Below, in pieces: positions 4,304 through 64,000 of a stretch of 64,000 nt of DNA. How positions within the stretch are numbered: the first letter of the stretch is position 1; each line of letters begins with the position of its first letter. The stretch covers positions 62,001 to 126,000 of the forward strand of contig JAKVAX010000007.1 of NCBI GenBank assembly GCA_022447625.1, written 5' to 3'. The notes under the pieces are model-generated. The model had not been told where the DNA came from. It worked only from the letters and a program-made list of their open reading frames with translations, and did no database searches. The DNA comes from Flavobacteriales bacterium (GTDB lineage Bacteria > Bacteroidota > Bacteroidia > Flavobacteriales_D > Sanyastnellaceae). The position numbers were made by a program, and so were the translations under genes.

Positions 4304-5350
4304 CTAGGACGTCCAGAAGAGGTCTTGTGCTTTGTCTATCAGGCGCGGAATTGGCAAGTTGTCAAAGGCGCCTTTCGCTACCCAAGATTCATCTTTCTTG
4401 GGCGCTATTTTTTGGTCTGTTGAAGCAATGATGAAACGCGCTTGAATTTTCCGATGGGAGAGAATGTGCTTAAAGCTTTCTGAAATATGGGTAACGATAA
4501 AGCTTTTCCCCAATGCCGATTGCAGCTGGGTAATGGCTTCTTCTTCAACGATGGCTTTCGAGTGTTCGATGCTCGGAAAGTCGTACATGTTGGCCCAAAT
4601 TCCCTTAGCGGGGCGTTTTCTCACCAACAGCTCATCCCCGTGTTTGAGTACCACATAATAAGTGTGTACTTCTTTGGTTTTCGTTTTCTTTTCTTTGAAC
4701 GGAATGCGGTCGAAGCTTCGGTCTCTTCGGGCTTGGCAATCGTTTTCCCAAGGACAAGTATTGCAAAGTGGCTTTTGTGGTTTGCAAACCAAGGCACCAA
4801 GTTCCATGACGCTCTGGTTGAAGTCTCCAGGATGGGATCTAGGCAAGATCCTGGTCATGGTTTCGCGTACTTTTTTCTCGCCTTTGGCGGAATTGATCGC
4901 GTCTTCCATGCCAATCAATCGAGAAATCACACGGAGTACATTGCCATCTACTACAGGGATAGCCTCATTGTAAGCGATGGAAGCAATGGCTGCTGCGGTG
5001 TATGGACCAATTCCCTTTAGGTTGCGTAATCCTTCCGCGCTATCGGGAAAAACACCATCATGCTCATTGACCACTTGTTTAGCAGCAAAAAGCAGGTTGC
5101 GAGCACGTGAATAGTAGCCTAGTCCTTGCCAGAGCTTCAAAACCTCTTCTTCTTCCGCGTTAGCGAGATCATGAACGGTAGAAAATCGGTCAGTAAATTT
5201 CAGGTAATAGGCCGTGCCTTGATCGATCCGAGTCTGCTGAAGAATGATCTCTGAAAGCCAAATCTTGAAGGGATTAGCGTCTTCTCGCCAAGGTAGTTGA
5301 CGCTTATTTTGCTGGTACCATAGAAGGATCTTTTCCGCCAATACTTTCAT
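4304..5350 (-). CDS. mutY: A/G-specific adenine glycosylase
   Basis: MutY removes adenine mispaired with 8-oxoguanine. From the ATG at 5350 the protein has 348 residues. The catalytic Glu lies in [13 protein letters not shown], and the helix-hairpin-helix is [14 protein letters not shown] followed by the conserved Asp in [10 protein letters not shown]. The iron-sulfur cluster loop [17 protein letters not shown] has the C-x6-C-x2-C-x5-C spacing. The C-terminal third looks like the NUDIX-type recognition domain. A TTG 15 bases upstream is a less likely start. The gene carries one exact and one near copy of the iterated motif. It starts back to back with the HU gene. Confidence 0.96.
5153..5166 (-). 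repeat. Iterated 14-bp motif, exact copy (in mutY)
   Basis: TCGCTAACGCGGAA on the minus strand, read as Leu-Ala-Asn-Ala-Glu in mutY. Confidence 0.8.
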
Positions 5351-5422
5351 CTGCTTGTAACACAAGGGATTGTTAATTGTTAAAAAGACAGAGCACTATT
5401 TTAGTTTTCAATGAAATAGGAC

Positions 5423-5430
5423 TATCTTTG
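5423..5430 (+). promoter_or_regulatory. -7 promoter box of the HU-TPR-rng gene group
   Basis: TATCTTTG matches TAnnTTTG exactly and lies 36 bases before the HU start codon. A matching TTG about 19 bases upstream is not obvious. Confidence 0.6.
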
Positions 5431-5466
5431 CGCTCCGTTTTTTGAGAACCACAAATAGAAGAAATT

Positions 5467-6356: not shown

Positions 6357-6359
6357 GCT

Positions 6360-6452: not shown

Positions 6453-6458
6453 TCTGTT

Positions 6459-6496: not shown

Positions 6497-6529
6497 TGTT
6501 CGAATGAAGTAACATCAAATGCGCAGCAT

Positions 6530-8083
6530 GTGAATGTAGAACTGGTCATAAATTCTACGAAAGAAGGCACTGAAATAGCCTTGCTTAATGACCGGACGCT
6601 GGTTGAATTGCACAAAGAGCATGTCAACCAAGAATATGCTGTAGGTGACCTATACGTAGGTAAGGTTCGCAAAGTATTGCCGAGCCTAAATGCAGCATTC
6701 GTGGATGTTGGATACGAGAGAGATGCGTTTTTGCATTACCTCGATCTAGGTCCACAGTTTGCCTCGATGAAATTGTACGCGAGGCGCGTTATGACGGGAA
6801 AACAGCAGTCTTCTAGTCTGGCAGACTTCCGAAAGTTGCCTGACATTGATAAGGGAGGCAAGATCAAAGATCAGCTGTCGAGCAGCCAGCAAGTGCTGGT
6901 GCAAGTCGCGAAAGAGCCTATTTCAGCCAAAGGTCCGCGCCTGACAACGGAAGTAACGTTGCCGGGTAGATTTATTGTGCTCGTGCCTTTTTCTACCAAA
7001 ATCTCCCTTTCTCAACGTATCCAAAACGAAGAAGAACGAACGCGTCTTCGTCGTTTGATGCAGAGTATCAAGCCGCCTAATTTCGGTGTGATCGTACGTA
7101 CGGTAGCCGAGAACAAAGGAGCAGCAGAACTTCACGCTGACTTGTCTGAACAAGTGAAGCGTTGGGAGTTACTTTATGACAACCTCAAGAAGAACAAAAA
7201 GCCACCTCACCGTGTGTTAGGGGAGATTGGTAAAACCAACGCGCTGTTGCGCGATATCCTAACACCGAATTTCTCTGCCATTCATGTCAACGATGAAGAC
7301 ATAGCGAATGAGGTGAAAGATTTCCTGCGCTCCATTGCTCCCGATAAAGAAGGGGTGGTGAAGCTATCGAAAGGAAAAGACCTCTTTGATACTTACCACA
7401 TCCACAAACAGATCAAAGCAACCTTTGGGAAGCAGGTAAATCTGAAGAGTGGAGCCTACTTAATTATCGAGCATACAGAGGCCATGCACGTGATTGACGT
7501 GAACAGTGGTGGGCGTAAAGGCGGTGTCAAGAATCAAGAGGAAAACGCACTCCAGACCAACCTCGAATGTGCGCGCGAAATTGCGCGGATCTTGCGCCTT
7601 CGTGATATGGGTGGAATCATTTGTATCGACTTCATCGATATGGGTGACCGTGCGAACCAGAAGAAACTATTCGAAGAGCTGAAGAAAGCCATGTCAACCG
7701 ACAAGGCAAAGCACAACATTCTTCCTCCAAGTCGTTTCGGGGTGGTAGAGATCACTCGCCAGCGTGTTCGCGAGGTGACTGATATTACTACCGCTGAGAA
7801 ATGTCCTTCTTGTGGAGGTAAGGGAGTTGTGGAAGCTCCGATCCTATTCACAGATACCATCGAAAATAACCTACGCTACCTGCGTGAGGATAAGAAGATG
7901 ACCAACATTCGTTTGGTAGTGCACCCAATGGTGGAGGCTTACCTAACGAAAGGACTCTGGAATAGCACCATCAAGAAGTGGCGTAAGCAGTACAAGATGA
8001 AGATTGCGCTTGAAGCGAACTCATCACTCCAATTCTTGGAGCATCACTTCTACGATAGTAAAGACGAAGAGATCACCCTCTGA
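6530..8083 (+). CDS. rng: Ribonuclease E/G family protein
   Basis: The 517-residue protein is an RNase G-type endonuclease for RNA processing. It has an S1-like RNA-binding region (VGDLYVGKVRKVLPSLNAAFVDVG, residues 36-59), the catalytic DNase I-like part with HVIDVNSGG and ICIDFIDMGD (metal-binding Asp residues), and a zinc-link CPSCGGKG near residue 427. It lacks the long C-terminal degradosome scaffold of RNase E. Translation most likely starts at the GTG at 6530, because no in-frame ATG lies nearby and NVELVINST is the usual family start. It ends back to back with the convergent HD gene with no gap. Confidence 0.95.
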   Translation: MNVELVINSTKEGTEIALLNDRTLVELHKEHVNQEYAVGDLYVGKVRKVLPSLNAAFVDVGYERDAFLHYLDLGPQFASMKLYARRVMTGKQQSSSLADFRKLPDIDKGGKIKDQLSSSQQVLVQVAKEPISAKGPRLTTEVTLPGRFIVLVPFSTKISLSQRIQNEEERTRLRRLMQSIKPPNFGVIVRTVAENKGAAELHADLSEQVKRWELLYDNLKKNKKPPHRVLGEIGKTNALLRDILTPNFSAIHVNDEDIANEVKDFLRSIAPDKEGVVKLSKGKDLFDTYHIHKQIKATFGKQVNLKSGAYLIIEHTEAMHVIDVNSGGRKGGVKNQEENALQTNLECAREIARILRLRDMGGIICIDFIDMGDRANQKKLFEELKKAMSTDKAKHNILPPSRFGVVEITRQRVREVTDITTAEKCPSCGGKGVVEAPILFTDTIENNLRYLREDKKMTNIRLVVHPMVEAYLTKGLWNSTIKKWRKQYKMKIALEANSSLQFLEHHFYDSKDEEITL

Positions 8084-15442: not shown

Positions 15443-18400
15443 ATGCGAAAAGCGATACTCACCCTTATCTTCTCGCTGCCTCTGCACCTCCTTGCGCAGT
15501 TGCCTCTTGAATTGGAGGGACTCGAATTGTGGGTTCGAGCTGATAGTTCGATGGAGTTGAACATCGACCGAGTGATCACTTGGTACGACCTGTCTGAGAA
15601 TGCTCGAGATCTTTCGCAAAACATCAACAATTTCCGCCCTGTAGTACTCGAAGATCAGTTGGCCGGGCATCGCACCGTCTACTTCAATGGGATCAATAAT
15701 CGTTTGGTTTTTGATGAGGTGCCCAATGCACGCAGTATCTTCTGGGTACTTAAGGAAGACGATGACGCGACAGGTGCTCGGCCACTGCTGGGACATAGCT
15801 CTACCTTCCCGTTCTTCAGGGGAGAGAACCAAGAGGTATGGCACCCCGATTTCGCTGATGAGGCGGTTCGTGATGGGGTGACTCGAGTAGGATTTGAAGC
15901 CATTGATGGTGATGTAGATCCATTGCCAGATGGGTATCAAATTGTGAGTTTGAGAACCACGGGCGACGTGGTTACCGACCAATTAGGTCAAGATCGAAAC
16001 ACCAACAACTTCTGGAAAGGGGAGATCGCTGAACTCCTTGTCTTTTCTACTGAATTGACTCCTGAGCAAGTAGAGACAGTGGAGAATTTCCTGGCTGATC
16101 ATTATTCCGTTTCGCTCAATTTGGGTGATGATATCGCTATCGCGGAAGGGTTTTGTCATACCACCTTGAGTGCCACCCCAGGCTTCTTAAGTTATGATTG
16201 GAACACAGGTGATACAGGACCTACAATCGATGTCAATAATTCTGGAATCTACGTTTGCGAAGCACTCGATGCCTTCGGACGAATTCAAGTGGATAGCATC
16301 GAAGTGACTTATCCAGGGAATACGATTCAGCAAGAACAAGGACTGATCTGTATCGGCGATAGCCTGCAGTGGAATCTTGAGCTAGATGAAGAACTCTATA
16401 CCATTGAATGGAATGATGGTGAACCGGGTGCCCATCGCTGGTTCCTCGAAGAAGGTGAGTTCTTTGCAACCATTACCGACGAGAATCTGTGCGTACTTGA
16501 GACGCCTGAGTTGATGGTTCAAGTAGATAGCTTCCCTCTAGAAGCCACGCTTGGTCCGGATGTTGAACTCTGTTCTGGGAACTTCATTTCACTTGATCCT
16601 GCCGGCGCTGAGATCACTTCCTACCTCTGGATGGAGAGTGTGGAAGATGAGCAATTGGAGATTCTAGAGACCGGTGAATACTTTGTGGAAGCTGAGAATA
16701 CCAACGGCTGCCAGGTGTTTGATACTATCATGGTCGAGATTGTTGGGCAGAGCCCGGAGGTGGTCATTTTGCAACCACCGTTCACTTGCCAAAACGTAGA
16801 AAACACTTTCCAAGCCTCGGCTTCTGCTGACGGCTTTATTACTTCATATGAATGGAATTTCGCTAACGCGGAAACGGGTAGTGGACAAATTGTAGAATGG
16901 ACTCCTGACTTCTTCGGATTTGCTGAAGTGAGTGTTTTGGTCACCGTTGAAACCGGTTGTACGGCTGAGGTGAGTGTGGAACTGAATGTGAATGCACAAC
17001 CGGAAGCCACCATTGGAGTGGGACAAGCATGTGCGAATAGTGAGATTCTGTTCTCGACGAATCCAACGGTGGAAGAAGGTTTGATTAGTTCTATTGATTG
17101 GGTCTTTGAAGGGGCTAGCGCCGAAGGGGACATCGTTTCATTTGAGACACAGGAAGCTGGGTTTTCTAATGTTTTGCTGACAGTCGACGCAACAAACGGT
17201 TGTTCCTTGTCACTTGAACAAATCATCAATGTATTCCCTTCTCCTGAGATTACGATCATCAATGAGCCGGTATGTTTTGGGGAGCTCAGTGCTTTTGAAC
17301 TCGATATTCAAGGAGGAGCTGGAAATATCGTAAGCTATGATTGGCTCTTTGGCGATGGTGCTACTTCAAGCCAAGACAGCCCGCAGCACTTCTACACCCA
17401 ACCAGGAGGTTACGTGGTAAGCGCTGAAGTAATCGCAGAAAACGGATGCCGTGGAGACAATGCCTTAACTACGCAAGTGCTGTCATTGCCTGAAGCTGAT
17501 TTTCCGGTAGGGAATGCTTGTATCGGTGAACCATATTTAATTGTAGATGCCTCTGTATCCTTCGATGATATTGATACTTGGGAGTGGGAAATTGACGAAC
17601 TCGGAAGCTTTGAAGGGGTGAGCATCTCACCAACCTTTGAATCGCTCGGCTTCCAAGAAGTTACCTTGTTCGTGACCACTGTTCAAGGGTGCAGTGATGA
17701 GATCACCAAACAAATCCCCGTCTTCGAACTGCCGGTAGCCGACTTCAGTTTTGATCCCGTCATCGGTCTGCCGCCACTTGAGGTCGACTTTATCAATGAG
17801 AGTGAAGGAGCAACTGAATTCGTTTGGAACTTCGGAACTGGTGATATCAGTGAAGAGGCCGAACCGACCTTCGTGTACAATGAAGAAGGGAGCTTTGAGA
17901 TCAATCTTTCCGCCACGAACGTCTATGGTTGTCGTGCGAACGCGAACGCTGTAATCGACGTCACGGAACCAATCCTTGACCTTCGTATGGAGGCCTTAAA
18001 TCATGTAACTACGGACTTCGGCTATCAAGTGAGTGCACTCATAGTCAATAGTGGAAACTATAGGCTTGACAGCGTAGCTTGTGTACTGACCCCAGGTAAT
18101 GGGAACACCCTCGTTGAATGGTTGAATGAACCGCTAGACGTTGGCGAAAGCAGAATCTTTACTTGGCAGAGCACCGTGCAATTAAGTGCGTCTTCGTACC
18201 CTTACTACTGCGCAGAAACCATTGCCTACTCTGAATTGGCAAGTGAACGCACCCCTGAAGACAACAGCCAATGCGGAGGCTTTACAGTTGAGTTTGAACT
18301 CACGCCGCTCTTCCCAAACCCGGCAAGAGCTGATGAGTTGCTCACCATGCGCATAATTGGCGCTACGTATATGGAAGTTCAATTCCGAGTGATTGATTTG

Positions 18401-19725: not shown

Positions 19726-21552
19726 TTAAGAAACGAGCTGACTCTGAAGTTCAACTAATCCGCGGTAAACACCGTTCTCGATTGTGATGAGTTCTTCGTG
19801 TTTTCCTTCCTCTACTTTTATGCCGCCATCTAAGACAATAATCTTATCTGCACTGCGGATTGTAGAAAGGCGGTGAGCAATCACCACAGAGGTTCTTCCC
19901 TTCATCAATTTATCAAGGGCATCTTGTACCAAACGTTCTGATTCACTATCCAGCGAACTCGTCGCCTCATCCAGAATCAAAATGGTTGGGTTCTTCAACA
20001 CGGCACGCGCAATGGCAATGCGTTGACGTTGTCCACCTGAAAGTTGAATTCCTCGCTCTCCCACGATGGTGTCTAAGCCATCAGGGAATTGGTCAATGAA
20101 CTGGAGTGCATTCGCCTGGGCTGCTGCCTGGTGAATCTCTTCATCGCTTGCCTCTGGGTTACCGTAGGCAATGTTTTCTTTAATGCTACCGCCGAATAGG
20201 ATCACCTCTTGGGGTACAAAGGCCATCTGAGAGCGTAGCTCGGTCAAATCATATTCACTGGCATCTACACCATCGAATTGCACCTTTCCAGCCTGAGGAA
20301 CATAGAACTGCAAGATCAACGAAGCAATCGTAGACTTACCAGCGCCTGACGGACCAACAATCGCTACATGGTCTCCAGCGCTAGCGCGGAAACTCAAGTC
20401 ATTGATCACTTGGATCTCTTTACGCGAGTCGTAGTGGAACTGCAGTCTTTGGAATTCGATTTCTCCCTTCAACGCCCGTTGCTTGAAGCTTGGCGATTCA
20501 ATCACGACTGGCTCAGGATCCAACTCAAGGATGTCCATCACGTTTTCAATGGCTCCAATTCCACGCTGTAGTTGAGCGAACTGAGCAGCAATACCACCGA
20601 TAGATCCGGCTACGAGACCGGTCATAAGTAGGAAGGAGAAGAAGTATTCGCTATCCAGTTCTCCTGCAGCCATTAAGTCGGCTCCCTTGAAAATAACCAA
20701 AGAGATGGCTCCAAAGATGAAGAGGATAATAAATGAGCTAAACGATGCTCTCCACCATGCCCCTTTCAGGGCGAATTTCTTGATTTCAGTGATGTTCCCC
20801 ATGTAACGAGTGACCTCTAATAATTCGTTGGCGAAGCTCTTAACATTGACAATACCCGTCAAGGTTTCTTGTACCACCACATTCGACTCTGCCACTTGGT
20901 CTTGCGTCTTCTTGCTCAGCTTACGAATGAATCGTCCGAAAATCACGGCAATGATGATCACCACAGGAAGGGTGCTCAACATAATGAAGGTGAGGGTAGG
21001 AGAGAAGAAGAGCAACGCAGCAATACCTCCAACAATCACGATGAGCTGTCGTAGCAACTCCGCGAGAGTAGTCGTAAAGACATCTTGAATCGAAGTGATA
21101 TCTGCGGAAATACGCGAGTTCAGATCACCCACTCGCTGCTCGTTGAAGTACTGCATCGGCATGCGAATAATCTTCTGGTAGGTGTCTTTTCGCAAGGCCA
21201 ACATCATGTTTTCCGTAATCCGCGCAAAGAGAATGACGCGAGTAAAGCTCATGATGGCTTGAATCACCAATACTGCAAAGATGATCACTGCCAAACTTCC
21301 GAGATCAGAGAAGTTAAACTCAAAATCAAAGTAAGAGCGGATATCGTCTTGCTCTGGCTGTTGAACTCCGACTCCTCCAAGCTGTCCCCAAAGACGAGTC
21401 ACCAACAGCGTGAATACCCCAGACAAGGAAATCAAGACAATACCAAAGGCAAACTGCCAACGATACGGTTTGACATATTTAAAGATGCGCGTAGCCTGCT
21501 TCAAGCTCGCTTTCGACAAACGCTTTTTCTTTTCTTTTTTCTTCTCGCTCAA
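19726..21552 (-). CDS. ABC transporter, fused membrane and ATPase domains (MsbA-like)
   Basis: The protein has about 608 residues, starting at a TTG (no in-frame ATG nearby) with a Lys-rich head MSEKKKEKKKRLSK. Residues about 30-330 form the six-helix export domain; the ATPase follows, with Walker A VGPSGAGKST, the signature LSGGQRQRIAIARA, Walker B ILILDEATSSLDSES and the H-loop VIAHRLST. Such half-transporters work as homodimers and export lipids, peptides or drugs; which one is unknown. A near copy of the iterated motif lies at 20378 in the opposite reading sense. Confidence 0.9.
   Translation of the reverse strand: MSEKKKEKKKRLSKASLKQATRIFKYVKPYRWQFAFGIVLISLSGVFTLLVTRLWGQLGGVGVQQPEQDDIRSYFDFEFNFSDLGSLAVIIFAVLVIQAIMSFTRVILFARITENMMLALRKDTYQKIIRMPMQYFNEQRVGDLNSRISADITSIQDVFTTTLAELLRQLIVIVGGIAALLFFSPTLTFIMLSTLPVVIIIAVIFGRFIRKLSKKTQDQVAESNVVVQETLTGIVNVKSFANELLEVTRYMGNITEIKKFALKGAWWRASFSSFIILFIFGAISLVIFKGADLMAAGELDSEYFFSFLLMTGLVAGSIGGIAAQFAQLQRGIGAIENVMDILELDPEPVVIESPSFKQRALKGEIEFQRLQFHYDSRKEIQVINDLSFRASAGDHVAIVGPSGAGKSTIASLILQFYVPQAGKVQFDGVDASEYDLTELRSQMAFVPQEVILFGGSIKENIAYGNPEASDEEIHQAAAQANALQFIDQFPDGLDTIVGERGIQLSGGQRQRIAIARAVLKNPTILILDEATSSLDSESERLVQDALDKLMKGRTSVVIAHRLSTIRSADKIIVLDGGIKVEEGKHEELITIENGVYRGLVELQSQLVS
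20378..20391 (+). repeat. Iterated 14-bp motif, 13/14 copy (in ABC transporter, antisense)
   Basis: GCGCTAGCGCGGAA on the strand opposite the gene; the gene itself reads Phe-Arg-Ala-Ser-Ala here, so the motif is not tied to one peptide. Confidence 0.6.
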
Positions 21553-23143: not shown

Positions 23144-23237
23144 CGATTTTCTAAGGAGAGCGTTCCTTACGAAGGTCAATATCTAATCAGTTGTCAACTG
23201 CATGACAAGCAACTAGGTACTTTGTTCACTTGAAGTT

Positions 23238-23245
23238 TACCTTTG
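23238..23245 (+). promoter_or_regulatory. -7 box abutting the phosphopantetheinyl transferase start
   Basis: TACCTTTG matches the consensus and ends 5 bases before the ATG at 23251. If transcription starts at the normal distance, the message would be nearly leaderless. This also argues against the longer frame beginning at 23230. Confidence 0.5.
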
Positions 23246-23250
23246 CACTT

Positions 23251-23868
23251 ATGCCGTTAAAGCTCCATTTGAGACATAGTGATGACTTTCAGATTGCCTT
23301 TTGGCACCTCGAAGAGACCCTGGAAGAGCTTCAAAGCACTTGTACACTTACTCCCGCAGACGAGGCTGAGTTTATCAAACTCAACCATGAAAAGCGTAAA
23401 CGAGAGTGGTTGGCTTCTCGTGCGGCGTTGCGTATTGGTCTCGCTAGCGCGGAATCGGTGCAGTACGCACCCACCGGCAAACCGAAACTGGAGAGCTCTG
23501 AAATGAGCCTCTCACATTGCCTCCCTATCGCAGGGGCCCTCATTCATCCCACGCATGCGGGAATGGATATTCAGATTCCCGATGAAAAAATCGGCCGCAT
23601 TCGAACCAAGTTCGCTCACCCCGAAGAACGCGGAGCCGCAGAACAAAGCGATCGTGAGCTAGACTACCTCACCATTCTCTGGTCTGCCAAAGAAGCCCTC
23701 TTTAAGGTATACGGTCAAGGTCTCCACTTCGCAGAGCAAATACGCATCGATCAATTCAAGGTAGGTCAACGAGAACTCACAGCCACAGTACACAGAGAAG
23801 GAAAATCGATCCAACACCAACTCAGTTGTTTTCAGCTGATGGGTCATTGGGTGGTGTACGTTTGTTAG
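23251..23868 (+). CDS. 4'-phosphopantetheinyl transferase
   Basis: From the ATG at 23251 the protein has 205 residues. The superfamily signature is clear: AGMDIQIPDEKIGRI with the metal-binding Asp, and TILWSAKEALFKVYGQGLHF with the W-x-x-K-E-A core. It should transfer the phosphopantetheine arm from coenzyme A to a carrier protein such as ACP. The length resembles Sfp-type rather than the short AcpS type, but the target is not shown. It carries an exact copy of the iterated motif at 23441. Confidence 0.9.
   Translation: MPLKLHLRHSDDFQIAFWHLEETLEELQSTCTLTPADEAEFIKLNHEKRKREWLASRAALRIGLASAESVQYAPTGKPKLESSEMSLSHCLPIAGALIHPTHAGMDIQIPDEKIGRIRTKFAHPEERGAAEQSDRELDYLTILWSAKEALFKVYGQGLHFAEQIRIDQFKVGQRELTATVHREGKSIQHQLSCFQLMGHWVVYVC
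23441..23454 (+). repeat. Iterated 14-bp motif, exact copy (in phosphopantetheinyl transferase)
   Basis: TCGCTAGCGCGGAA, read as Leu-Ala-Ser-Ala-Glu. Confidence 0.8.
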
Positions 23869-24786: not shown

Positions 24787-25458
24787 TCAAAGCAGCGATT
24801 TTGGCTTCCCTGCGACGAATTCTTTCAAATAGTATGGTTCAAAGTATGCTGGGTCTACGGTTTTTTTCTTCGCTAGCACGGAATGGGCTAACAGCGACAT
24901 CCCCTTTGCGGAAGGGAGGAATGAAGCATTGAATTTCATAGATGGGTGCTGTAGGAATCCCTCACATTTGCCAGCACCGTCTCCCAATGTGAGCACTGTG
25001 CCTGAGAGATGATTAAAACTCTCTTCTAAGACTTCCAAGGCTTGTGCTTCCTGTAGAGTGTTTCCAGTAGCATCGAAAGTAGCGGTGTATACCTCCATGC
25101 GACGAGCGTCTATCATGGGGAGGTAGTAATCAAAACCTGGATGTTCTTCCCGAGCTTGGGCCGCCATATGCTCCAATGTTGAAAGTGCGATCAACGGCAG
25201 ATCCAATGCGAAACACAATCCTTTCGAGGCAGCGGTTCCGATGCGTAAACCAGTGTAAGATCCTGGTCCTTTACTGATCGCTATCGCCGAAAGGTCTTTT
25301 GAACGATCACCAATAACCTCTTTGATTAATATATGGAGTCGCTCAGCGTGGATGTACTTTTGGCTGTGTTCTTCTTTCAAGCTGATCAGCCCACTTTCAT
25401 CCGAAAGGGCAACTGAACAGTTCTTGGTGGCACTTTCAATACTGAGAATTAGGCTCAT
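24787..25458 (-). CDS. tsaB: tRNA t6A37 biosynthesis protein TsaB
   Basis: The 223-residue protein starts MSLILSIESATKNCSVALS and has the ISKGPGSYTGLRIGTAASKG motif near residue 63 and MIDARRMEVYTA near residue 115, typical of TsaB (YeaZ). It is the scaffold partner of TsaD in making threonylcarbamoyladenosine in tRNA. It overlaps the HlyD gene by 4 bases, so it is probably coupled to the efflux genes upstream. Near copies of the iterated motif lie at 24870 and 25278 in the opposite reading sense. Confidence 0.95.
   Translation of the reverse strand: MSLILSIESATKNCSVALSDESGLISLKEEHSQKYIHAERLHILIKEVIGDRSKDLSAIAISKGPGSYTGLRIGTAASKGLCFALDLPLIALSTLEHMAAQAREEHPGFDYYLPMIDARRMEVYTATFDATGNTLQEAQALEVLEESFNHLSGTVLTLGDGAGKCEGFLQHPSMKFNASFLPSAKGMSLLAHSVLAKKKTVDPAYFEPYYLKEFVAGKPKSLL
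24870..24883 (+). repeat. Iterated 14-bp motif, 13/14 copy (in tsaB, antisense)
   Basis: TCGCTAGCACGGAA, one base changed, on the strand opposite tsaB. Confidence 0.5.
25278..25291 (+). repeat. Iterated 14-bp motif, second 13/14 copy (in tsaB, antisense)
   Basis: TCGCTATCGCCGAA, one base changed, on the strand opposite tsaB. Confidence 0.5.
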
Positions 25459-26810
25459 TCTTCAGACTCCTCGTCTTTTGCGCGACTGTTCTTCACCTTC
25501 ACGCGCTTTCCGTTTTTAAGGTTTTCAGAAACCTCTTTGTACGGGCCGCTGATGATGACATCGCCGTCTTCCAATCCATCAATGATCTCGATGTACTTGC
25601 TGTCTTGAAGTCCGGTTTCAACTACGCGAATCACAGATTGGCCGTTTTCCAATACGAACACGCAAGTAAGGTCTTCCTTGTCATCTTCCTCATCGTCGTC
25701 TGAATCATCATTGCCACTGTTCATGTATTGGCTGTATGCGTTCGACGCTGTATCTGAACGGGTAGTTACCGCTTTGATAGGAATCGCGAGAACATCTTCT
25801 GCTTTATCCGTCATGATTTCCACCGTAGCCGACATACCCGGACGGAAAGGAGAGAGGTGTTCTTCACCTTCATTCATCAGGTGTTTGTAGCTCGATGGAA
25901 GAATACGCACCTTCACAGAGAAGTTGGTTACCTGATCCATACTTAGGGCAGATGAGGTCAGGGAATTGAGGGCTGTATTACTAATCTCAGTGACCACGCC
26001 TTTGAATTCTTCGTCGATGTAAGCATCAACTTCAACCATGGCTGTATCACCAAGAGAGACGAGCACAATGTCGCTTTCGTTGACTTCCACATTCACCTCC
26101 ATGCTGCTGAGGTTCGATACTTTCATGATCGTCTCTCCTTGCATCATGCTAGTTCCCAGAACAGCTTCACCTACTTCCTTGGTCAACGCTGTCACGGTTC
26201 CACCCATGGGAGCTTTGAGCTCCGTACGTTTAAGGTTATCTGCCGCTTCACGGTATGACGCTTCCGCGCTAGCGATAGAAAACTGAGCCGATTTTATGCT
26301 CTGTTCAGCAGCTTCAACTTCAGCCTTACTCACTTCAAAATTCGAAAGTGCTTGGTCATAGTCTGCTTGAGAAATAGCCCCTTGTTCGAACAATTGCTGG
26401 CTACGTTCAAAAGAACGCTCAGCCGCGAGGAATTGCGCCTCAGATTGAAGTTTACGCGCCTTCGAAGAAGCCAGCGTAGCGCGAGAGGTATTCACCGCCG
26501 CCTGCGCACGGCCTAAAGCCGATTGGTAGATGTCAGGGTTGATGCCGACCAAGAGATCGCCAGGACCAACCAAATCACCTTCTTTCACTGGAAGGTCAAG
26601 GATCAGTCCGCTTACCTCAGCAGAGATCATTACCTCCACTTCTGGTTGGATCTTACCGCTAGCAGAAACGGTTTCAGTTATCGTACGAATCGATGTATCA
26701 TCCGTTGAGACTTCCACCCCTTTGCGTTTCCCTCCAAAAACAGAGGCGAGCACAGCAATGAGGATGATCACCCCAAGAGAGATCAGAATGATTTTGACTG
26801 TTTTAGACAT
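25455..26810 (-). CDS. HlyD/MacA-type periplasmic adaptor (membrane fusion protein)
   Basis: The 451-residue protein has one N-terminal membrane helix (IILISLGVIILIAVLASVFGG), a biotinyl-lipoyl half-motif (VSASGKIQPEVEVMISAEVSG), a long coiled coil with SQADYDQALSNFEVSKAEVE, a second lipoyl part and a beta-barrel. An unusual acidic run (residues about 369-381, mostly Asp and Glu) sits in a loop. It should link an inner-membrane pump to the TolC protein encoded just upstream. No MacB-type permease is in the window. Its start overlaps the TolC stop by one base. Confidence 0.92.
   Translation of the reverse strand: MSKTVKIILISLGVIILIAVLASVFGGKRKGVEVSTDDTSIRTITETVSASGKIQPEVEVMISAEVSGLILDLPVKEGDLVGPGDLLVGINPDIYQSALGRAQAAVNTSRATLASSKARKLQSEAQFLAAERSFERSQQLFEQGAISQADYDQALSNFEVSKAEVEAAEQSIKSAQFSIASAEASYREAADNLKRTELKAPMGGTVTALTKEVGEAVLGTSMMQGETIMKVSNLSSMEVNVEVNESDIVLVSLGDTAMVEVDAYIDEEFKGVVTEISNTALNSLTSSALSMDQVTNFSVKVRILPSSYKHLMNEGEEHLSPFRPGMSATVEIMTDKAEDVLAIPIKAVTTRSDTASNAYSQYMNSGNDDSDDDEEDDKEDLTCVFVLENGQSVIRVVETGLQDSKYIEIIDGLEDGDVIISGPYKEVSENLKNGKRVKVKNSRAKDEESEE
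26262..26275 (-). repeat. Iterated 14-bp motif, exact copy (in HlyD-type adaptor)
   Basis: TCGCTAGCGCGGAA on the minus strand, read as Ile-Ala-Ser-Ala-Glu in the coiled coil. Confidence 0.8.
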
Positions 26811-39716: not shown

Positions 39717-39730
39717 TTCCGCGCTAGCGT
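39717..39730 (-). repeat. Iterated 14-bp motif, 13/14 intergenic copy
   Basis: ACGCTAGCGCGGAA in the gap between the ligase gene and fcl, the only clear copy outside genes. It sits just upstream of the fcl -7 box. Confidence 0.65.
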
Positions 39731-42286: not shown

Positions 42287-43729
42287 TCACATGCGATCTG
42301 CTAACAAAGAGCGCACATATACCAATCTTAGGAGTCCGGTTAGGAAGGAACTTACAACTGCTACCCCCAGGAATCCTGCAAATTCTAACTCCCATGCTAG
42401 GTCAATTATTGTGGTCACCCATGCAGAAGTTGCTAAGATACTTAAGAATAGGAGGCTACGTAAGAATACGCCATTTTGTAGCTTGATCTTTACCAGCCTG
42501 TAGCACAGGATGATTTGTACTATGGCTACTAATATTTGGGTGGCTAAACTGGCTAGCGCCGAACCGGTAGAAGTATGTTCTGGAATGAGGATACAGTTCA
42601 AAACGATGTTCAGAATGACAGCGCTTCCTGCAATTCTATTCATGGCCTTCATGTCTCCGTTTGCTGTCAATAGGGTTCCCCATAGATAGGTCATCATCAT
42701 GAAGAAGAAAGAGATCATGAGCAACATGAATGGACTGCTCGCGGCTTCAATCTCAGCGTCGTAGACCAGGCTTAGGATTTCGGATGGCCATAGGGCACAA
42801 GTGAACGACATGATACTCCCACCCACCAAGATCAAGCGAAAGGCATTGCTCACTAGGGGAGTAGTATCTTCTTTATGCTTTAGCTGTTTCGATAGAAGTG
42901 GTAGTAACAGCGTAGCGAAAAGGAAGCCAACCATATTCGAAGCCTCGAATAAACGATACCCCATCGCATAAACACCTGAGTGATAATCACCATCTGGAAG
43001 CATACGCTCGAGCATTACTGAATCGGTTTTGTAATAAACCATCATCAGCAAGACCAGTAATGCATAAGGAAGACTTTCTTTCAGAATAACACGATTCACG
43101 CGTGGTTTCCAGCGCAATTGAATCTTTCCGGCTTTCTGAATAACCATGACCAGCGCAACCACCATTCCAACCGCATAGGCTATCGTTTGGCCGTAAACCA
43201 GCAAGTAGATATTGAAGCCCTCTTCCGCCGGTGAGGCGAAAAGAACAGCACCCAGGCCTAAAAGGAGAATCGCTCGGTCAAGCACCGATACCACCGCATC
43301 GCGTGAGAAAAGCATCATGCCACTCAGATTAGAACGCAGGTATAGAATGCTGGCTGATAATAGTTGGTTCAGTCCAAGCCATGCCAGAAGTTTAAGGTCT
43401 GCGCCTTCGTATTGTAAAATGAGCGCCGCACCTATGAGTAGCACGAAATACAAGGCAACAAGAGAAAGTCTTAACAACGCAACACTATTGAAATAGCTAG
43501 CTACCATATGTTGTTTTCTCGCGACACTTCGACTCGTAAAGGTGTTGATGCCCAGATCTAAGAAAATGTTCAGAAGAAAAGAGAGGTTGAGCAGGGCTGC
43601 GTAGTTTCCGAACACTTCTGCTCCCACTCGGTTCTGCACCTCCGTTTCTACGAATAGCAAATACGCTGGCTTGATCATCAAGTTCAGCAGAAGGAGCAGC
43701 GATAAGTTAGTAAGGAAGGTTCGTTGCAT
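42287..43729 (-). CDS. Oligosaccharide flippase, Wzx-like
   Basis: The 480-residue protein has about fourteen helices and starts MQRTFLTNLSLLLLLNLMIKP, then VGAEVFGNYAALLNLSFLLNIFLDLGINTF, the typical first repeat of polysaccharide transporters. It should move lipid-linked repeat units across the inner membrane. It stands next to the split wzz and wzy genes, as in a Wzx/Wzy pathway. The start is close (75 bases) to the divergent glycosyltransferase. Confidence 0.88.
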   Translation of the reverse strand: MQRTFLTNLSLLLLLNLMIKPAYLLFVETEVQNRVGAEVFGNYAALLNLSFLLNIFLDLGINTFTSRSVARKQHMVASYFNSVALLRLSLVALYFVLLIGAALILQYEGADLKLLAWLGLNQLLSASILYLRSNLSGMMLFSRDAVVSVLDRAILLLGLGAVLFASPAEEGFNIYLLVYGQTIAYAVGMVVALVMVIQKAGKIQLRWKPRVNRVILKESLPYALLVLLMMVYYKTDSVMLERMLPDGDYHSGVYAMGYRLFEASNMVGFLFATLLLPLLSKQLKHKEDTTPLVSNAFRLILVGGSIMSFTCALWPSEILSLVYDAEIEAASSPFMLLMISFFFMMMTYLWGTLLTANGDMKAMNRIAGSAVILNIVLNCILIPEHTSTGSALASLATQILVAIVQIILCYRLVKIKLQNGVFLRSLLFLSILATSAWVTTIIDLAWELEFAGFLGVAVVSSFLTGLLRLVYVRSLLADRM

Positions 43730-52624: not shown

Positions 52625-53629
52625 ATGTTCACCGATACACAAAGCTACATTCAGCATCTTGCATCGATTAGCTCGATGCGAGAGTTTAACGAATTAGCCC
52701 TGGCGTTATTTCGCTATCAAGCGAAGTATTGCTCAGTGTACAACCAATTCATCCAAGAATTGGGCATCCATCCAACTAAGATACAAGCGATCGAGGAAAT
52801 TCCCTTCCTACCCATCGAAGTATTCAAATCGCACGAGGTACAAACGGATCATTTCGAGGCGCAGGCCATCTTTACAAGCAGCGGAACCTCGGGGATGAGC
52901 ACCAGCCAGCATTTTGTGCGTGATCTGTCGCTTTATGAATGGAGCTTCTTTCAAGCATTTGAGCAAGCTTATCATAAGCACAGTACCTGGGATGACTGGT
53001 GCATCCTAGCCCTTTTGCCGTCATATATGGAGCGTTCTGGCTCCAGTTTGATCTACATGGCAGAGAAGATGGTTGACCTCACTCAGCGCAATGGTTCGGG
53101 TTTTTATCTCAATGCAGACGAGGCGCTTTTTGCCGCGATCGATCAAGCAAAATCCAAAGGTAAAAAGGCCCTGCTCTTGGGTGTTACTTTCGCCTTACTC
53201 GCTATCGCGGAACGTCAACAAGTTGACTTCGACGGTGTGGTGGTCATGGAAACAGGAGGGATGAAAGGCATGCGAAAAGAAATGGTACGCGAAGAGCTAC
53301 ACGGATTTCTTCAGTCTCGGATGAATGTGTCGGCTATACACAGCGAATACGGAATGACGGAATTACTAAGTCAAGCCTACAGTAAAGGACAAGGAATTTT
53401 CGAAGCCCCGCCTTGGATGAGGGTAATGATCAGGCAAGTTGATGATCCCTTTGGCTGGGAAACGCACCGCAAGACAGGAGGAGTAAATGTCATCGACTTA
53501 GCTAGCCGTGATAGCTGTGCCTTCATTGCTACTTCTGACTTGGGAAGGGTGTCTTCAGATGGCTCTTTCGAAATTCTTGGACGCTTTGATCATGCGGATG
53601 TGCGAGGTTGCAACCTTCTTTTGGCTTGA
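52625..53629 (+). CDS. LuxE/PaaK-family acyltransferase (acyl-protein synthetase-like)
   Basis: The 334-residue protein belongs to the LuxE-like branch of the adenylate-forming superfamily. It has IPFLPIEVFKSHEV, the nucleotide loop IFTSSGTSGMSTSQH near residue 87, VVMETGGMKGMRKEM, and SEYGMTELLSQAYS, with an end VSSDGSFEILGRFDHADVRG. Such enzymes activate carboxylic acids as AMP esters. No luxCD genes are near, so bioluminescence is not implied. An exact iterated motif lies at 53199. The ATG at 52601 is an alternative start. Confidence 0.88.
   Translation: MFTDTQSYIQHLASISSMREFNELALALFRYQAKYCSVYNQFIQELGIHPTKIQAIEEIPFLPIEVFKSHEVQTDHFEAQAIFTSSGTSGMSTSQHFVRDLSLYEWSFFQAFEQAYHKHSTWDDWCILALLPSYMERSGSSLIYMAEKMVDLTQRNGSGFYLNADEALFAAIDQAKSKGKKALLLGVTFALLAIAERQQVDFDGVVVMETGGMKGMRKEMVREELHGFLQSRMNVSAIHSEYGMTELLSQAYSKGQGIFEAPPWMRVMIRQVDDPFGWETHRKTGGVNVIDLASRDSCAFIATSDLGRVSSDGSFEILGRFDHADVRGCNLLLA
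53199..53212 (+). repeat. Iterated 14-bp motif, exact copy (in LuxE-like gene)
   Basis: TCGCTATCGCGGAA, read as Leu-Ala-Ile-Ala-Glu. Confidence 0.8.
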
Positions 53630-56736: not shown

Positions 56737-58017
56737 TCAAAGGAGCTCTGCGGCACGTTCGAGACGCATTCCTCGTGAGCCTTTGACAAGTATGCTTCGT
56801 TGCTGAGGAAGATTCGCCTTCAATCGTTCAATCAGCTCATCCGTGGTTTCAACAAATGCATCTCCATTTCCAACCTTTGCGAAGTGTGATCCAACGAAGA
56901 TGACTTCGAGGTTGAGTTTCTCGGTTAAGGCGACCACTTTGCGGTGTTCTTCATCTGCCACATCTCCCAATTCAAACATATCTCCCAGGATGCATAGCTT
57001 GTTCTCATCCTTTCCTTTTGCAAACGACTCCAAGGCATTAAGCATGGAGGTAGGGTTCGCATTGTAGGCGTCCATGATCAAGGTGTTGTGCTTTCCTTGT
57101 TTACGTTCTGATCGGTTGTTATCGGGTTTGTATTCCGCGATAGCGTGATTAATAGCCTCTGGCTTAACGCCGAAGTAAATACCCATGGCAATGGCAGCGG
57201 CAATGTTATTCAGGTTGTATTCACCCGTCAATTGCGTTTGAACCTTCGGACTGGTATATGCATCGTGAGTCCAGGCGATGCTCAGGAGTGGATCTGTGTC
57301 AAGTAAATAGACCTCTGGGGTATCTACACTCGTTCCGTATAAAATGCGCTCCATGCCTTCTGAAATGGCTAGGAGGATAGGGTCAGTACAGTTGATAAAG
57401 ACAGGGCGATTCTTTTCTTTCAAGTGATCGAAGAGTTCTTTCTTTCCTTTCCGAACCCCTTCGAGTCCACCGAAACCTTCGAGGTGTGCTTTACCAATAT
57501 TCGTGATGTAACCGAAATCTGGATCAGAAAGGGTGCTGAGGAACTGAATTTCCTTCTGGGCATTGGCGCCCATTTCGATCACAGCAAATTCATGATTATC
57601 GGTCATTTCAAGAAGGCTCAACGGAACACCAATGTGGTTGTTGAGGTTGCCTTTGGTGGCGTAGGTAGAATAGGTGGAAGCTAGTACTTCACGAATGAGT
57701 TCTTTGGAAGTCGTTTTACCATTGCTTCCAGTGAGCCCAATGATTTTTCCTTTGAACTGCTGACGGTGGTACTTCGCCAATTCTTGAAGCGCCGTTAAAA
57801 CATCCTCTACAAGAAAAGTCTGTTCCGCGTTAGCGAATTCAGCTTCATCAATAACGGCCAAAGCACAGCCTGCATCAAGCGCTTGCTGCGCGTATTGGTT
57901 ACCATTGAAACGCTCACCTTTGAGGGCGAAAAAGATCTTGCCGTCTGTAGCCTGGCGTGTATCAGTGGTGACTCCGGTAGAGCGGAGGTAGTGTTCGTAG
58001 AGTTCTTCTGTACGCAT
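56737..58017 (-). CDS. murF: UDP-N-acetylmuramoyl-tripeptide--D-alanyl-D-alanine ligase
   Basis: From the ATG at 58017 the protein has 426 residues. It has the Mur ligase motifs: VTTDTRQATDGKIFFALKG at the N-terminus, the ATP loop LTGSNGKTTSKELI near residue 99, NLNNHIGVPLSLL, EMGANAQKEI, and DAYNANPTSMLNALESF in the C-terminal half. It adds D-Ala-D-Ala to the peptidoglycan precursor. It carries one exact (57823) and one 13/14 (57133) iterated motif. It lies just downstream of a terminator after gldJ. Confidence 0.96.
   Translation of the reverse strand: MRTEELYEHYLRSTGVTTDTRQATDGKIFFALKGERFNGNQYAQQALDAGCALAVIDEAEFANAEQTFLVEDVLTALQELAKYHRQQFKGKIIGLTGSNGKTTSKELIREVLASTYSTYATKGNLNNHIGVPLSLLEMTDNHEFAVIEMGANAQKEIQFLSTLSDPDFGYITNIGKAHLEGFGGLEGVRKGKKELFDHLKEKNRPVFINCTDPILLAISEGMERILYGTSVDTPEVYLLDTDPLLSIAWTHDAYTSPKVQTQLTGEYNLNNIAAAIAMGIYFGVKPEAINHAIAEYKPDNNRSERKQGKHNTLIMDAYNANPTSMLNALESFAKGKDENKLCILGDMFELGDVADEEHRKVVALTEKLNLEVIFVGSHFAKVGNGDAFVETTDELIERLKANLPQQRSILVKGSRGMRLERAAELL
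57133..57146 (-). repeat. Iterated 14-bp motif, 13/14 copy (in murF)
   Basis: ACGCTATCGCGGAA on the minus strand, read as His-Ala-Ile-Ala-Glu. Confidence 0.7.
57823..57836 (-). repeat. Iterated 14-bp motif, exact copy (in murF)
   Basis: TCGCTAACGCGGAA on the minus strand, read as Phe-Ala-Asn-Ala-Glu, 690 bases from the other murF copy. Confidence 0.8.
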
Positions 58018-60875: not shown

Positions 60876-61016
60876 CTCCTTCAATTTGAGTCAGCTTCTC
60901 CGCTAAATGAGCAATAATACGAAAAAAATTCACAGAGGAATTCGCAGTCTTTCTGCAATAAGGAGACTAAGTGTTCGTTTAATTTGTTGCTTGAACCAAG
61001 GCAATTGACCTAAGTA

Positions 61017-64000
61017 ATGAAGTATTTACTCTTAGTTTTTACGACCATCTTGGCCTCTTTTTCAGGGCGCTCTCAACGTTCGATTGATGTTCAGTACTCT
61101 ATTGAATGGACTGATAAACAGGGCGAAACGCCTGTCCCTGTTGGGGGGGTTGGGTTTGAAACGGCCCTTTGGGAAGACGAACTTCCGACGGCTCTTTTCA
61201 CAAAAGAAATTCAGGGGAATGCTTCGCGGGTTCAATTGATTCTTGAGAACCTAGAGTCTGAAATAATCAATGAAAATGAGCTGACGGCCCGACAAATTCA
61301 GCTTCTTCCTACACAAGTTGTTCTCGAACCAACAGTGAAACAAGGAAGAACTGATTACTACGTGCAGATTCGAATCATCCCTATTTGGCGCGATCCGCAG
61401 ACAGGCGTGATTCGTCGTTTGCTTTCGTTCGATGGTCTTTTAGAATTTACTCCAGGGCGATCTGTTACAGGTCGCGCACTAAGCTGGGCTCCGAACAGTG
61501 TGCTTGCTGAGGGTACCTTTTATAAACTCGCTATCGCGGAAGACGGAATCTACCGCATTGACCGCACGTTCCTACAGTCAATGGGGGTTGACATCAATGC
61601 ACTCGATCCAAATCAGATCAATATCTACGGTAATGGAGGGGCACTACTTCCGTTTGACAATGAAGTTGACCGACCAACAGGTCTAAGAAAGAATGCGATT
61701 TATGTTGAAGGTGCTGATGATGGTAGTTTCGATTCCAATGATTTCATTCTTTTTTACGGAAGAGGAGCAGATTCATGGGCCTATGACGAAGGAGACGACA
61801 TTTACCGCCATACACGTCACCACTATTCTGATTCAGCATATTATTTCATGCGTATTGATGATGTTGATCCTTTGCGTATCGCTAGCGCGGAAGATCCGGG
61901 AACTGCTAACCAGACGTCGAACGCTTTTACTGATCACCAGTTCCTAGAGAATGAGAATGTAAACTTGGCCAAGTCAGGTCGTGAGTTCTACGGAGACAAC
62001 TTCACGAATGGTCAGCCCGTACCGTTTGCCTTTGCCGCTCCAAATTTGTTGAGTGATCAAGGCTACTTTGAATCACGCGTGGCTATTCGTTCAATGGATG
62101 TCTCGAGCACCTTCGATATGACCATCTTTGGTGAATCGGTTGGGTTAACAGCTTCTCCAACGAGTGATGGAGCCACATCAAACTTTGCAAACATTGCGGT
62201 CGCGAGCACGAACTTCATTCCTTCGGGGGATCAAGTAAGTGTGACAGTTCAGCTCGATCAAGCGACACCTGATGCTGAAGGCTGGATCGATTACCTCATG
62301 TGGAATGCACGTCGTGAATTATCCATGGCAGGAAGCCAAATGGAATTTCGCGACCCAACCGTGACAGGAGCTGGGAACGTGACGGAATTTACCATGGAGA
62401 ATGCGTTCACGGTAAGTCAAGTCTGGGACATTACAGACTTTGTGGTTCCTCAACTAATTCCATTTACACCAGATCAGAACGATCCTTCTACGATCAGTTT
62501 TACTGCAACTACAGAAGAAAATAAAGAATTTATCGCGTTCGGGAATTTCAATTTCTTAGAACCAGTGAGCCATGGTCAAATCGAAAACCAAAATCTTCAC
62601 GCACTGACAGACATCGACCTTGTTGTTTTGACCAACGAGCGATTCCTGCCGGTGGCAGAAGAATATATTGCCATTCATGAAGAAGATGGTTTGACAATCG
62701 CATTGGTCGATTTATACCAAGTGTTTAATGAGTTCTCTAGTGGGAACCCAGATGTGACTGGAGTGAAGATGCTCATGAAGATGCTCTTCGATCGTGCAAA
62801 TGGAGATGTGTCTCTGATGCCAAAGTATCTTCAGATTTTGGGTGATGGATCCTTTCAGAACCGTCACGTGAAGAACGATGCGGCAACCATCATTACTTAT
62901 CAAAGTCTGAGGTCGAATAGTCCGGTATTCTCGTACGTGAGTGATGACTATTTCGGATTCTTATCTGATGATGCTAGTGAGGCGCTAGGTGACCTTATGG
63001 ACATTGGGGTAGGAAGAATTCCTTGTCAGAATGTGACGGAAGGCTTGGGCTACCTTAACAAGTTACGCAGCTACCGTTCAGGGAATACAAGCACTGACGG
63101 TGATGCCTACTGTATTGGTGATGATGCTCTTTCTCCTTATGGAGCATGGCGAAACGTGATCACTTTCGTAGCTGATGACTACGATGGAAATGGAGCACCA
63201 ATTGAGATTAACCACATGAGTAATAGTGAAGAACACAATGACACTATTATTTCCCGTCATAACGATTACGATATTGTAAAAATTTACATGGACGCTTACC
63301 AGCAGAATTCAACTCCTGGTGGTGAACGTTACCCAGATGCAGAAGATGCTATTCGCCGCCGCGTGCAAAATGGATCACTCATCGTCAATTACATTGGCCA
63401 CGGTGGTGAGCGCGGTTGGGCGCACGAACGTGTATTGAATACGACAACGATTCAAGAATGGACGAACTTCAACAGTCTTCCAGTATTCGTTACAGCGACG
63501 TGCGAGTTGGCTCGTTTTGATGACCCTGAGTTCAAATCAGCAGGAGAGTTGCTCATTATGAATCCGAATGGAGGAGCTGTAGCCATGTTGACCACCACCC
63601 GTATCGTATTCTCAGGAAGCAATCAGCAATTGAACCGTGCCTTTTTCAAGGTCGCTCTTGAAGATGAAGATATCGAAGAGTTGACCCTTGGCTTCATTTG
63701 TATGGAGACCAAAAACGATGATGGTGTAACAGATTCGTCGAACAAGCGAAACTTCAGTTTGTTAGGAGACGTGGCCCTGAAGATGGTATATCCAAAAGTT
63801 GACGTATACACGACCGAGATTAACGGAGTGGCAATTGATCCGCTGCAGCCTGATACGGTGCGCTCTCTGCAAGAGGTGACCATTAAAGGATACGTAGGTG
63901 CTACTGATGGAACGAAGCTGACGGATTTCAATGGCTTCGTTTACCCAACGGTTTACGACAAGAAGTCAGAAGTGACGACACTGAACAATGACGGAGGTTC
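61017..64000 (+). CDS. porU: Type IX secretion sortase PorU, partial (C-terminus beyond the window)
   Basis: The plus-strand frame from the ATG at 61017 stays open to the window end, 994 codons. It has signal peptide MKYLLLVFTTILASFSG, a beta-rich N-terminal region with FYKLAIAEDGIYRID and INIYGNGGALLPFDNEVD, and a C25 gingipain-type peptidase domain. The catalytic His 795 lies in NYIGHGGERGW and the Cys 829 in VTATCELARFDDP. PorU removes the sorting domain of type IX cargo and links it to lipopolysaccharide. Two exact iterated motifs lie in the N-terminal part. porV usually follows but lies outside. Confidence 0.95.
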   Translation, partial: MKYLLLVFTTILASFSGRSQRSIDVQYSIEWTDKQGETPVPVGGVGFETALWEDELPTALFTKEIQGNASRVQLILENLESEIINENELTARQIQLLPTQVVLEPTVKQGRTDYYVQIRIIPIWRDPQTGVIRRLLSFDGLLEFTPGRSVTGRALSWAPNSVLAEGTFYKLAIAEDGIYRIDRTFLQSMGVDINALDPNQINIYGNGGALLPFDNEVDRPTGLRKNAIYVEGADDGSFDSNDFILFYGRGADSWAYDEGDDIYRHTRHHYSDSAYYFMRIDDVDPLRIASAEDPGTANQTSNAFTDHQFLENENVNLAKSGREFYGDNFTNGQPVPFAFAAPNLLSDQGYFESRVAIRSMDVSSTFDMTIFGESVGLTASPTSDGATSNFANIAVASTNFIPSGDQVSVTVQLDQATPDAEGWIDYLMWNARRELSMAGSQMEFRDPTVTGAGNVTEFTMENAFTVSQVWDITDFVVPQLIPFTPDQNDPSTISFTATTEENKEFIAFGNFNFLEPVSHGQIENQNLHALTDIDLVVLTNERFLPVAEEYIAIHEEDGLTIALVDLYQVFNEFSSGNPDVTGVKMLMKMLFDRANGDVSLMPKYLQILGDGSFQNRHVKNDAATIITYQSLRSNSPVFSYVSDDYFGFLSDDASEALGDLMDIGVGRIPCQNVTEGLGYLNKLRSYRSGNTSTDGDAYCIGDDALSPYGAWRNVITFVADDYDGNGAPIEINHMSNSEEHNDTIISRHNDYDIVKIYMDAYQQNSTPGGERYPDAEDAIRRRVQNGSLIVNYIGHGGERGWAHERVLNTTTIQEWTNFNSLPVFVTATCELARFDDPEFKSAGELLIMNPNGGAVAMLTTTRIVFSGSNQQLNRAFFKVALEDEDIEELTLGFICMETKNDDGVTDSSNKRNFSLLGDVALKMVYPKVDVYTTEINGVAIDPLQPDTVRSLQEVTIKGYVGATDGTKLTDFNGFVYPTVYDKKSEVTTLNNDGG
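61528..61541 (+). repeat. Iterated 14-bp motif, exact copy (in porU)
   Basis: TCGCTATCGCGGAA, read as Leu-Ala-Ile-Ala-Glu. Confidence 0.8.
61879..61892 (+). repeat. Iterated 14-bp motif, second exact copy (in porU)
   Basis: TCGCTAGCGCGGAA, read as Ile-Ala-Ser-Ala-Glu, 351 bases from the first porU copy. Confidence 0.8.

Follow-up and report, generated by a model that had tools for sequence, protein, structure and literature searches.

What kind of signal is a 14-bp word that recurs in unrelated genes throughout a stretch of Flavobacteriales DNA? The stretch in question (the window hereafter) comprises 64,000 nucleotides, positions 62,001 to 126,000 of contig JAKVAX010000007.1 (GCA_022447625.1; G000:C67:62001-126000 in our numbering), from a home genome (G000) of 3.9 Mb in 76 contigs. 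By its Por_Secre_tail and related proteins, the DNA would belong to Bacteroidota, probably to Flavobacteriales. We show here that the 14-mer represents the most frequent version of a signal at the DNA level, comprised of a T-rich leader followed by [NNC]TAnC[GNN]GAA, i.e., a short, strict Watson-Crick stem with a loop and a tail rich in purines, and that this signal occurs in at least three dialects within one Bacteroidota family. The structure is firm; the function proposed for it below is tentative.

The word and its paired stem

A preliminary description of the window had listed nine exact copies of the word and five with one change, all of which are present (14 matches, against a mean of 0.05 and a maximum of 1 in 100 dinucleotide shuffles). 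It had also named six weaker variants, of which those at 3421, 5033, and 51711 lie within two mismatches of the word, whereas those at 1093, 35932, and 51749 differ by more than two. Its suggestion of a genome-wide iterated signal is borne out: the home genome contains 410 exact 14-mers (180 on the plus and 230 on the minus strand; none for a reversed-pattern control), and the word is hence not confined to the window. The true core is the 13-bp CGCTAnCGCGGAA, the leading T being a mere preference (in copies with one mismatch or none, it is present in 82% of those sampled from the home genome and in 60% of those from the sister species). This core has 667 copies in the home genome and 770 in the complete chromosome of the sister species (G002). 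Among the 114 genomes of the family, a genome placed in the same genus (G001) has a single copy and each of the other 111 has at most two, while in a sample of 395 phylum genomes each of the other 394 has at most four. The over-representation is strong, genome-wide, and limited to one clade, as in the case of DNA uptake sequences (DUS) and uptake signal sequences (USS).

A base-preference profile of 14-mer copies with at most one mismatch, picked by their similarity to the word, shows positions 2-5 and 8-14 to be almost invariant, position 6 to be A in 94-97%, and position 7 to be free with a preference for G. The mismatch spectrum is sharp: 362 kb of the home genome contain 52, 25, 36, and 91 copies with 0, 1, 2, and 3 mismatches, as against means of 0.03, 0.35, 5, and 68 for 40 shuffled words in the same DNA. 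That no such motif is described for this group accords with our searches of the open-licence literature, which found neither a described hairpin nor an uptake motif in the group.

The element is not the fixed 14-mer it had been taken for; it is a hairpin whose stems can be exchanged as long as they pair strictly. In the tests of pairing, here and in the dialects below, strings were picked by loop and tail, and the tests are not circular, unlike a further pair count on copies preselected as paired. The samples of the home genome and sister species (1.16 Mb, of which 800 kb, with ~10 kb reading N, are from the latter) contain 349 strings of the form [NNC]TAnC[GNN]GAA; 292 of these are exactly complementary, with about 22 expected, and their stems include CGC (222), GGC (31), CAC (16), CTC (7), and CCC (5). 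Even without the CGC stem, 70 of 127 strings are paired, where about eight are expected, indicating that both arms change together. Five altered combinations of loop and tail display no pairing excess (18 of 260 strings; 16 expected). If both arms are left free around the fixed loop and tail ([NNN]TAnC[NNN]GAA), the non-CGC arms are far above chance in the home genome and sister species, respectively (GGC 7 and 24; CAC 7 and 9; CTC 3 and 4). Stems with one G.T pair are only slightly more numerous than in shuffled sequence (11 vs 6.2 and 18 vs 12.0), whereas perfect stems in the same test number 100 vs 4.7 and 215 vs 8.0; the G001 dialect has no stem with a G.T pair. T makes up 47-49% of the six bases preceding the stem (vs ~30%), an enrichment that extends to intergenic and antisense copies. 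The density in the sampled chromosome is ~0.25 per kb, which extrapolates to about a thousand hairpins per genome.

The window itself contains 17 members of this paired family, five with a stem other than CGC. The preliminary list was thus right in its exact copies but overlooked the compensated members at 17113, 39995, and 42551 (GGC), 35806 (CAC), and perhaps 8048 (TAC), and its one-change copies at 24870 and 25278, though present, have a broken stem. The members are:

5153..5165, minus strand: site with CGC stem, in a mutY-like gene (HhH-GPD + NUDIX_4)
8048..8060, minus strand: possible site with TAC stem, paired; could be chance
16135..16147, plus strand: site with CGC stem, in the gene for a PKD/Por_Secre_tail protein
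16861..16873, plus strand: site with CGC stem, in the same PKD/Por_Secre_tail gene as the 16135 site
17113..17125, plus strand: compensated site with GGC stem, identical string in the sister species
20379..20391, plus strand: site with CGC stem, antisense within an ABC transporter gene
23442..23454, plus strand: site with CGC stem, in the predicted open reading frame 23230-23868
26262..26274, minus strand: site with CGC stem, in an HlyD-family gene
35806..35818, plus strand: compensated site with CAC stem, shared with the sister species
39717..39729, minus strand: site with CGC stem, intergenic
39995..40007, plus strand: compensated site with GGC stem, shared with the sister species
42551..42563, plus strand: compensated site with GGC stem, shared with the sister species
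53200..53212, plus strand: site with CGC stem, in a predicted gene
57133..57145, minus strand: site with CGC stem, in a predicted gene
57823..57835, minus strand: site with CGC stem, in the same predicted gene as the 57133 site
61529..61541, plus strand: site with CGC stem, in a predicted gene
61880..61892, plus strand: site with CGC stem, in the same predicted gene as the 61529 site

Dialects in relatives

In G001, where the word is absent save for the single core copy, the hairpin takes the form C n n C G C [RAAA] G C G n n G followed by GATG, its inner bases being preferred rather than fixed. Among 97 RAAA + GA[TA]G strings of this genome, 33 have perfect six-bp stems, one has a single mismatch, none has two, and the rest have three or more. 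A third dialect, in a genome from another genus (G016), has a T-rich leader, C N N C C [TnnC or TnnAC] G G N N G, and again GATG; perfect five-bp stems occur in 27 of 168 loop-and-tail strings, where fewer than one is expected by chance. In both dialects most stem positions vary freely and pairing is kept. A plain sequence-specific double-stranded uptake word, i.e., an ordinary DUS or USS whose stem variants are simply variant words, would share the sharp mismatch spectrum, in-place spread, presence on both strands, and codon-frame preference of the present signal. However, such a word accounts neither for the excess of paired strings without CGC nor for these stems that are mostly free in sequence and yet paired; covariation already largely refutes this explanation, which we consider very improbable. 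Elsewhere in G001 (L022-L023), repeats dominate the k-mer counts.

Covariance models were built from the G001 copies (R1; 40 of 41 after dropping one duplicate) and from 15 of 28 G016 copies (R2; an alignment of all 28, A2, was dropped with its four- and five-base loops out of register). When run over 26 loci, R1 recovered G016 copies as its first seven matches outside G001, each individually weak (E 0.011-0.1). R2, run over the 114 family genomes (E up to 1) with up to 63 candidates scored per genome, found at least 63 in G016 (63 of 63 scored), at least 45 in G001 (45 of 63; best E 1e-7), at least 17 in G007, 16 in G026, 13 in the sister species, and 10 in the home genome, and at least 0-4 in the others, all these counts being floors. 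Thus, the models of the two dialects find each other. Over 199 genomes of the order, family included (E up to 0.01; up to 36 candidates scored per genome), only those six genomes have more than one R2 match, and outside the family four genomes have one each. By these matches G007 and G026 are no more than probable bearers of a dialect, as 90 kb of G007 contained too few copies. In G007 there is further a long array that repeats regularly every 70-75 bp, its repeat including ACTCCGTCAGGAGT (L102); it looks like a CRISPR array.

In another relative, G008 (L082-L099), dispersed words of the form GC(ACAAG|CTTCG|CATTCG|GACAAGC)GCAAATG are found, several of them after T-rich stretches; this weaker, hairpin-like family is perhaps a fourth dialect, and we do not count it among those shown. 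Generic scans of G003, G010, G013, G021, and G050 (61-137 kb each) detected no loop-and-tail class of comparable strength. Excesses of certain loops in G021 (AATT, GAAA), G050 (ACGT), and a mixed Bacteroidota set (RAAA, 13 vs 1.3) may reflect terminators or other elements.

Placement and origin of the copies

Genes were called with a simple caller of our own (88% coding) rather than from standard annotation. By these calls, genes contain 57 of the 66 core copies sampled from the home genome and 134 of the 156 from the sister species, approximately the coding share of the DNA. Together these 222 copies divide into 134 sense, 57 antisense, and 31 not wholly within a gene. A single sense frame, with codons xxC GCT AnC GCG GAA, accounts for 124 of the 191 coding copies, while none of the 191 uses sense frame 0, where n = A or G gives a stop, or antisense frame 1, which invariably gives one. 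Of the 41 copies in 180 kb of G001, 20 are sense, 11 antisense, and 10 intergenic, the last being about double what the noncoding share predicts. A codon- or protein-level cause was rejected, given that the genes are unrelated and that copies occur on both strands and between genes. An RNA element with a role in mRNA stability, processing, or regulation would be compatible with a hairpin that is commoner in the sense orientation (134 of the 191 coding copies); nevertheless, we consider it the least probable of the explanations weighed here, because the remaining 57 coding copies are antisense and the equivalents of G.U pairs are hardly tolerated.

The copies appear to have arisen in place. The home genome and sister species are 92.7% identical over 189 kb, in which 44 of 56 paired-family sites are intact in both; the other 12 are broken, all by substitution and none by a gap, and the fixed positions differ by ~2%, as against 7% in the flanks. 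The broken sites are lopsided, with 11 intact only in the sister species and one only in the home genome, a possible sign that the signal is being lost from the latter. In 25 alignments with more distant relatives, several of which share a gene, the motif is free of gaps, and a smaller share of the residues within it is conserved (58 of 125) than of the flanking ones (440 of 743). The lower conservation, along with the absence of gaps, indicates that the signal has been imposed on the proteins, mostly at variable places, e.g., DASAE vs QAPFD and SAIAE vs AEWLS; one copy is produced by codon choice within a conserved SSALA stretch of what we take to be carbamoyl phosphate synthase. In nine G001 alignments over three sites there is again no gap in the site, and in mutY the G001 copy overlaps the codons of the G002 copy. 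The preliminary view that this is no inserted element thus holds against the orthologue alignments, and insertion was rejected for the home genome and sister species.

Along 0.8 Mb of the sister chromosome, the 156 copies are balanced between strands (80 plus, 76 minus), with no bias in any of six segments. The spacing of copies is as random, close pairs are not in excess, the distribution is even (variance/mean 0.83 in 40 stretches of 20 kb each), and no gradient toward ori or ter was seen in this sample. Four copies in L009 are spaced at 861 bp, by this spacing a tandem repeat. Evenness, the lack of strand bias, and conservation would suit a chromosome-maintenance signal, wherein a structure-binding nucleoid, repair, or recombination protein lands on extruded hairpins. 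However, the word dialect is absent (at most two core copies) from 112 of 114 family genomes and the G016-type model is rich in only a few genera, making the signal look too labile for such a role, and the sample shows no ori or ter gradient; we judge this explanation unlikely.

The short, chromosome-wide iterated Chi and KOPS (FtsK-orienting polar sequences) are strand-polarised. The present signal resembles them in being iterated chromosome-wide but lacks replication polarity in the sampled part of the sister chromosome, and a Chi- or KOPS-type site, as had been proposed, was therefore rejected. Separately, the 7-mer CGGACAA is 1.2-3.3 fold above Markov expectation in 12 of 12 sequence sets, most so in G007, and is possibly a Chi-like or codon effect. 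In the sister species sample GATCGATC is under-represented (18 vs 63 expected), as is GAAGCTTC (35 vs 108, and 18 vs 47 in the home genome); these deficits resemble avoided restriction sites.

Possible function of the hairpin

Since pairing rather than the stem sequence is kept, and a duplex reader should not need free complementary arms, the form recognised would be a folded single strand or a cruciform, with a reader protein contacting the loop and tail. Incoming single-stranded DNA bearing the hairpin might then be kept or integrated better, i.e., a self-preference in DNA import or recombination, and transformation would thereby write the hairpin into the genome of the population, like the uptake bias for DUS and USS. 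Spread by such a self-preference is suggested by a signal that is strand-blind, without replication polarity, in place in coding and noncoding DNA alike, and shifting in dialect among relatives. Strand-blind single-stranded DNA occurs in transformation and conjugation. Accordant with this picture, the relevant passages of PMC1939737 describe uptake-enhancing sequences as being without orientation bias and evolving by point mutation; in those of PMC7965970, one Bacteroidota species prefers its own DNA in transformation, and the candidate words listed there are only A/T-rich. We tentatively favor a self-DNA signal on single-stranded DNA, most likely acting in transformation or recombination, while giving this reading somewhat less than an even chance. 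The fuller proposal, a self-recognition code of about a thousand in-place hairpins whose dialect would co-evolve with its reader, as a structure-based second solution beside the fixed words of DUS and USS, is more doubtful still.

Several points weigh against this self-DNA reading. It presumes competence in these species. The ComEC domain, present in 10 of 10 genomes searched, would suit DNA import but does not discriminate, and the PF00437 ATPase (type II secretion/type IV pilus-type), found in seven of 80 relatives (G000, G002, G008, G027, G053, G058, and G073), was not found in the dialect bearers G001 and G016. A pilus receptor therefore cannot be general, and the pilus link was dropped as a general cause. 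The three-bp stem of the home genome is weak, the hairpin being the best fold (-2.4 kcal/mol) in two of three window examples; the third prefers another fold, and the z-scores of the three are -0.1, -1.0, and 0.3. A compensated stem change is seen at none of the 44 sites intact in both the home genome and sister species, sense copies outnumber antisense ones 2.4 to 1, and outside the home genome and sister species the alignments bearing on in-place origin cover three sites, all in G001. Moreover, we know of no uptake sequence recognised by pairing.

The PF00437 ATPase lies in type II secretion/type IV pilus-like clusters in the home genome (L076 and L080, G000:C46) and the sister species (L012, G002:C1 near 2.2 Mb), with prepilin-like, prepilin-peptidase-like, and secretin-like proteins recognised by eye. 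The latter cluster lies next to a giant Rhs/YD-repeat-like gene; this stretch, the lowest in GC of those sampled, has one hairpin site against a mean of five.

A different single-strand reader would be a host-adapted HUH endonuclease system (Y1, akin to RAYTs, the transposases associated with repetitive extragenic palindromes, or REPs), which would use the hairpin and foot tag as its substrate, as TnpA-REP uses REP. The fixed tag at one hairpin foot (GATG or GAA; on the opposite strand CATC or TTC before the hairpin) would fit such a system; further, Y1_Tnp genes occur in nine of 12 genomes searched, including G000, G001, G002, and G016, and two of three G008 Y1 loci each hold two GCAAATG words within 2.4-3.3 kb, somewhat over the average density. 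The Bacteroidetes subclass 2.6 is described as flanked by atypical secondary structures in the pertinent part of PMC6006769. Nonetheless, the Y1 matches of the home genome (L121) and sister species (L128) share no BLAST match, and neither these nor the Y1 gene of G001 (L125) has a copy of the local dialect within 1.5 kb on each side. At weak RAYT-like places in the home genome (C3) and G001 (L025), the nearest copies are 3.8 and 1.2 kb away, as density predicts, and the G016 Y1 locus has no copy of the patterns scanned, among which the dialect of G016 itself was not included. As the copies are also in place, mainly genic, and not closely paired, unlike inserted REPs, the RAYT-REP explanation is disfavoured and appears to us unlikely.

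The hairpin fits no known kind of element, combining in-place spread like that of DUS with the kept pairing of REP hairpins. Known DUS and USS are fixed words without a covarying stem. The likeness to uptake sequences noted in the preliminary description stands as regards in-place spread and fails as regards the fixed word. With the DUS of Neisseriaceae and USS of Pasteurellaceae, the hairpin shares hundreds of copies on both strands, the lack of chromosomal polarity, in-place point mutation, dialects among relatives, and a coding-frame preference. It differs in its different phylum, in stems that are interchangeable if paired, in an uptake role that is here only surmised, and in a pilus-type ATPase that not every bearer has. 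The noncoding excess given for DUS and USS in the relevant part of PMC1939737 is likewise absent from the home genome and sister species, though G001 has about twice the share between genes (10 of 41).

REPs share with the hairpin a short tagged form, a covarying stem, hundreds of copies, and lineage-specific families. Nevertheless, the GTAG- and CGTC-tagged REPs are, in the passages of PMC3733652 and PMC6006769 that treat them, inserted, mostly extragenic, often paired, and in many cases tied to a Y1 transposase gene, whereas the present copies are single, in place, and without gaps or an excess of close pairs, with 191 of 222 in genes and none within 1.5 kb of the three Y1 genes of G000, G002, and G001, though two G008 Y1 loci do have GCAAATG words. 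The palindromic elements of Rickettsia, to which PMC3733652 refers, also sit inside protein genes; they are in-frame insertions, but no length change accompanies the copies here. Among the stem-loop families of 40 bacterial genomes in the corresponding section of PMC2267715, two thirds lie between genes, and one small family, found in various genes in different frames, is likened to the Rickettsia elements. The HIP1 repeat of cyanobacteria (GCGATCGC) is a highly iterated, fixed double-stranded palindrome. Like it, the present word is GC-rich, highly iterated, and clade-limited; however, only its copies with n = G contain a double-stranded palindrome, its loop and tail are asymmetric and its stems variable, and the proposed likeness to HIP1 is not supported.

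To our knowledge, the known iterated genome signals are fixed words and the known tagged genomic hairpin families spread by insertion. The hairpin described here joins in-place presence in protein genes with base-pair conservation and dialects, and for each nearby family it lacks a defining feature that was tested. That bacteria might discriminate self from foreign DNA by way of a folded single strand becomes a testable proposition, and the binding partners of the dialect hairpins offer a route to a reader protein, possibly a missing specificity factor of Bacteroidota transformation.

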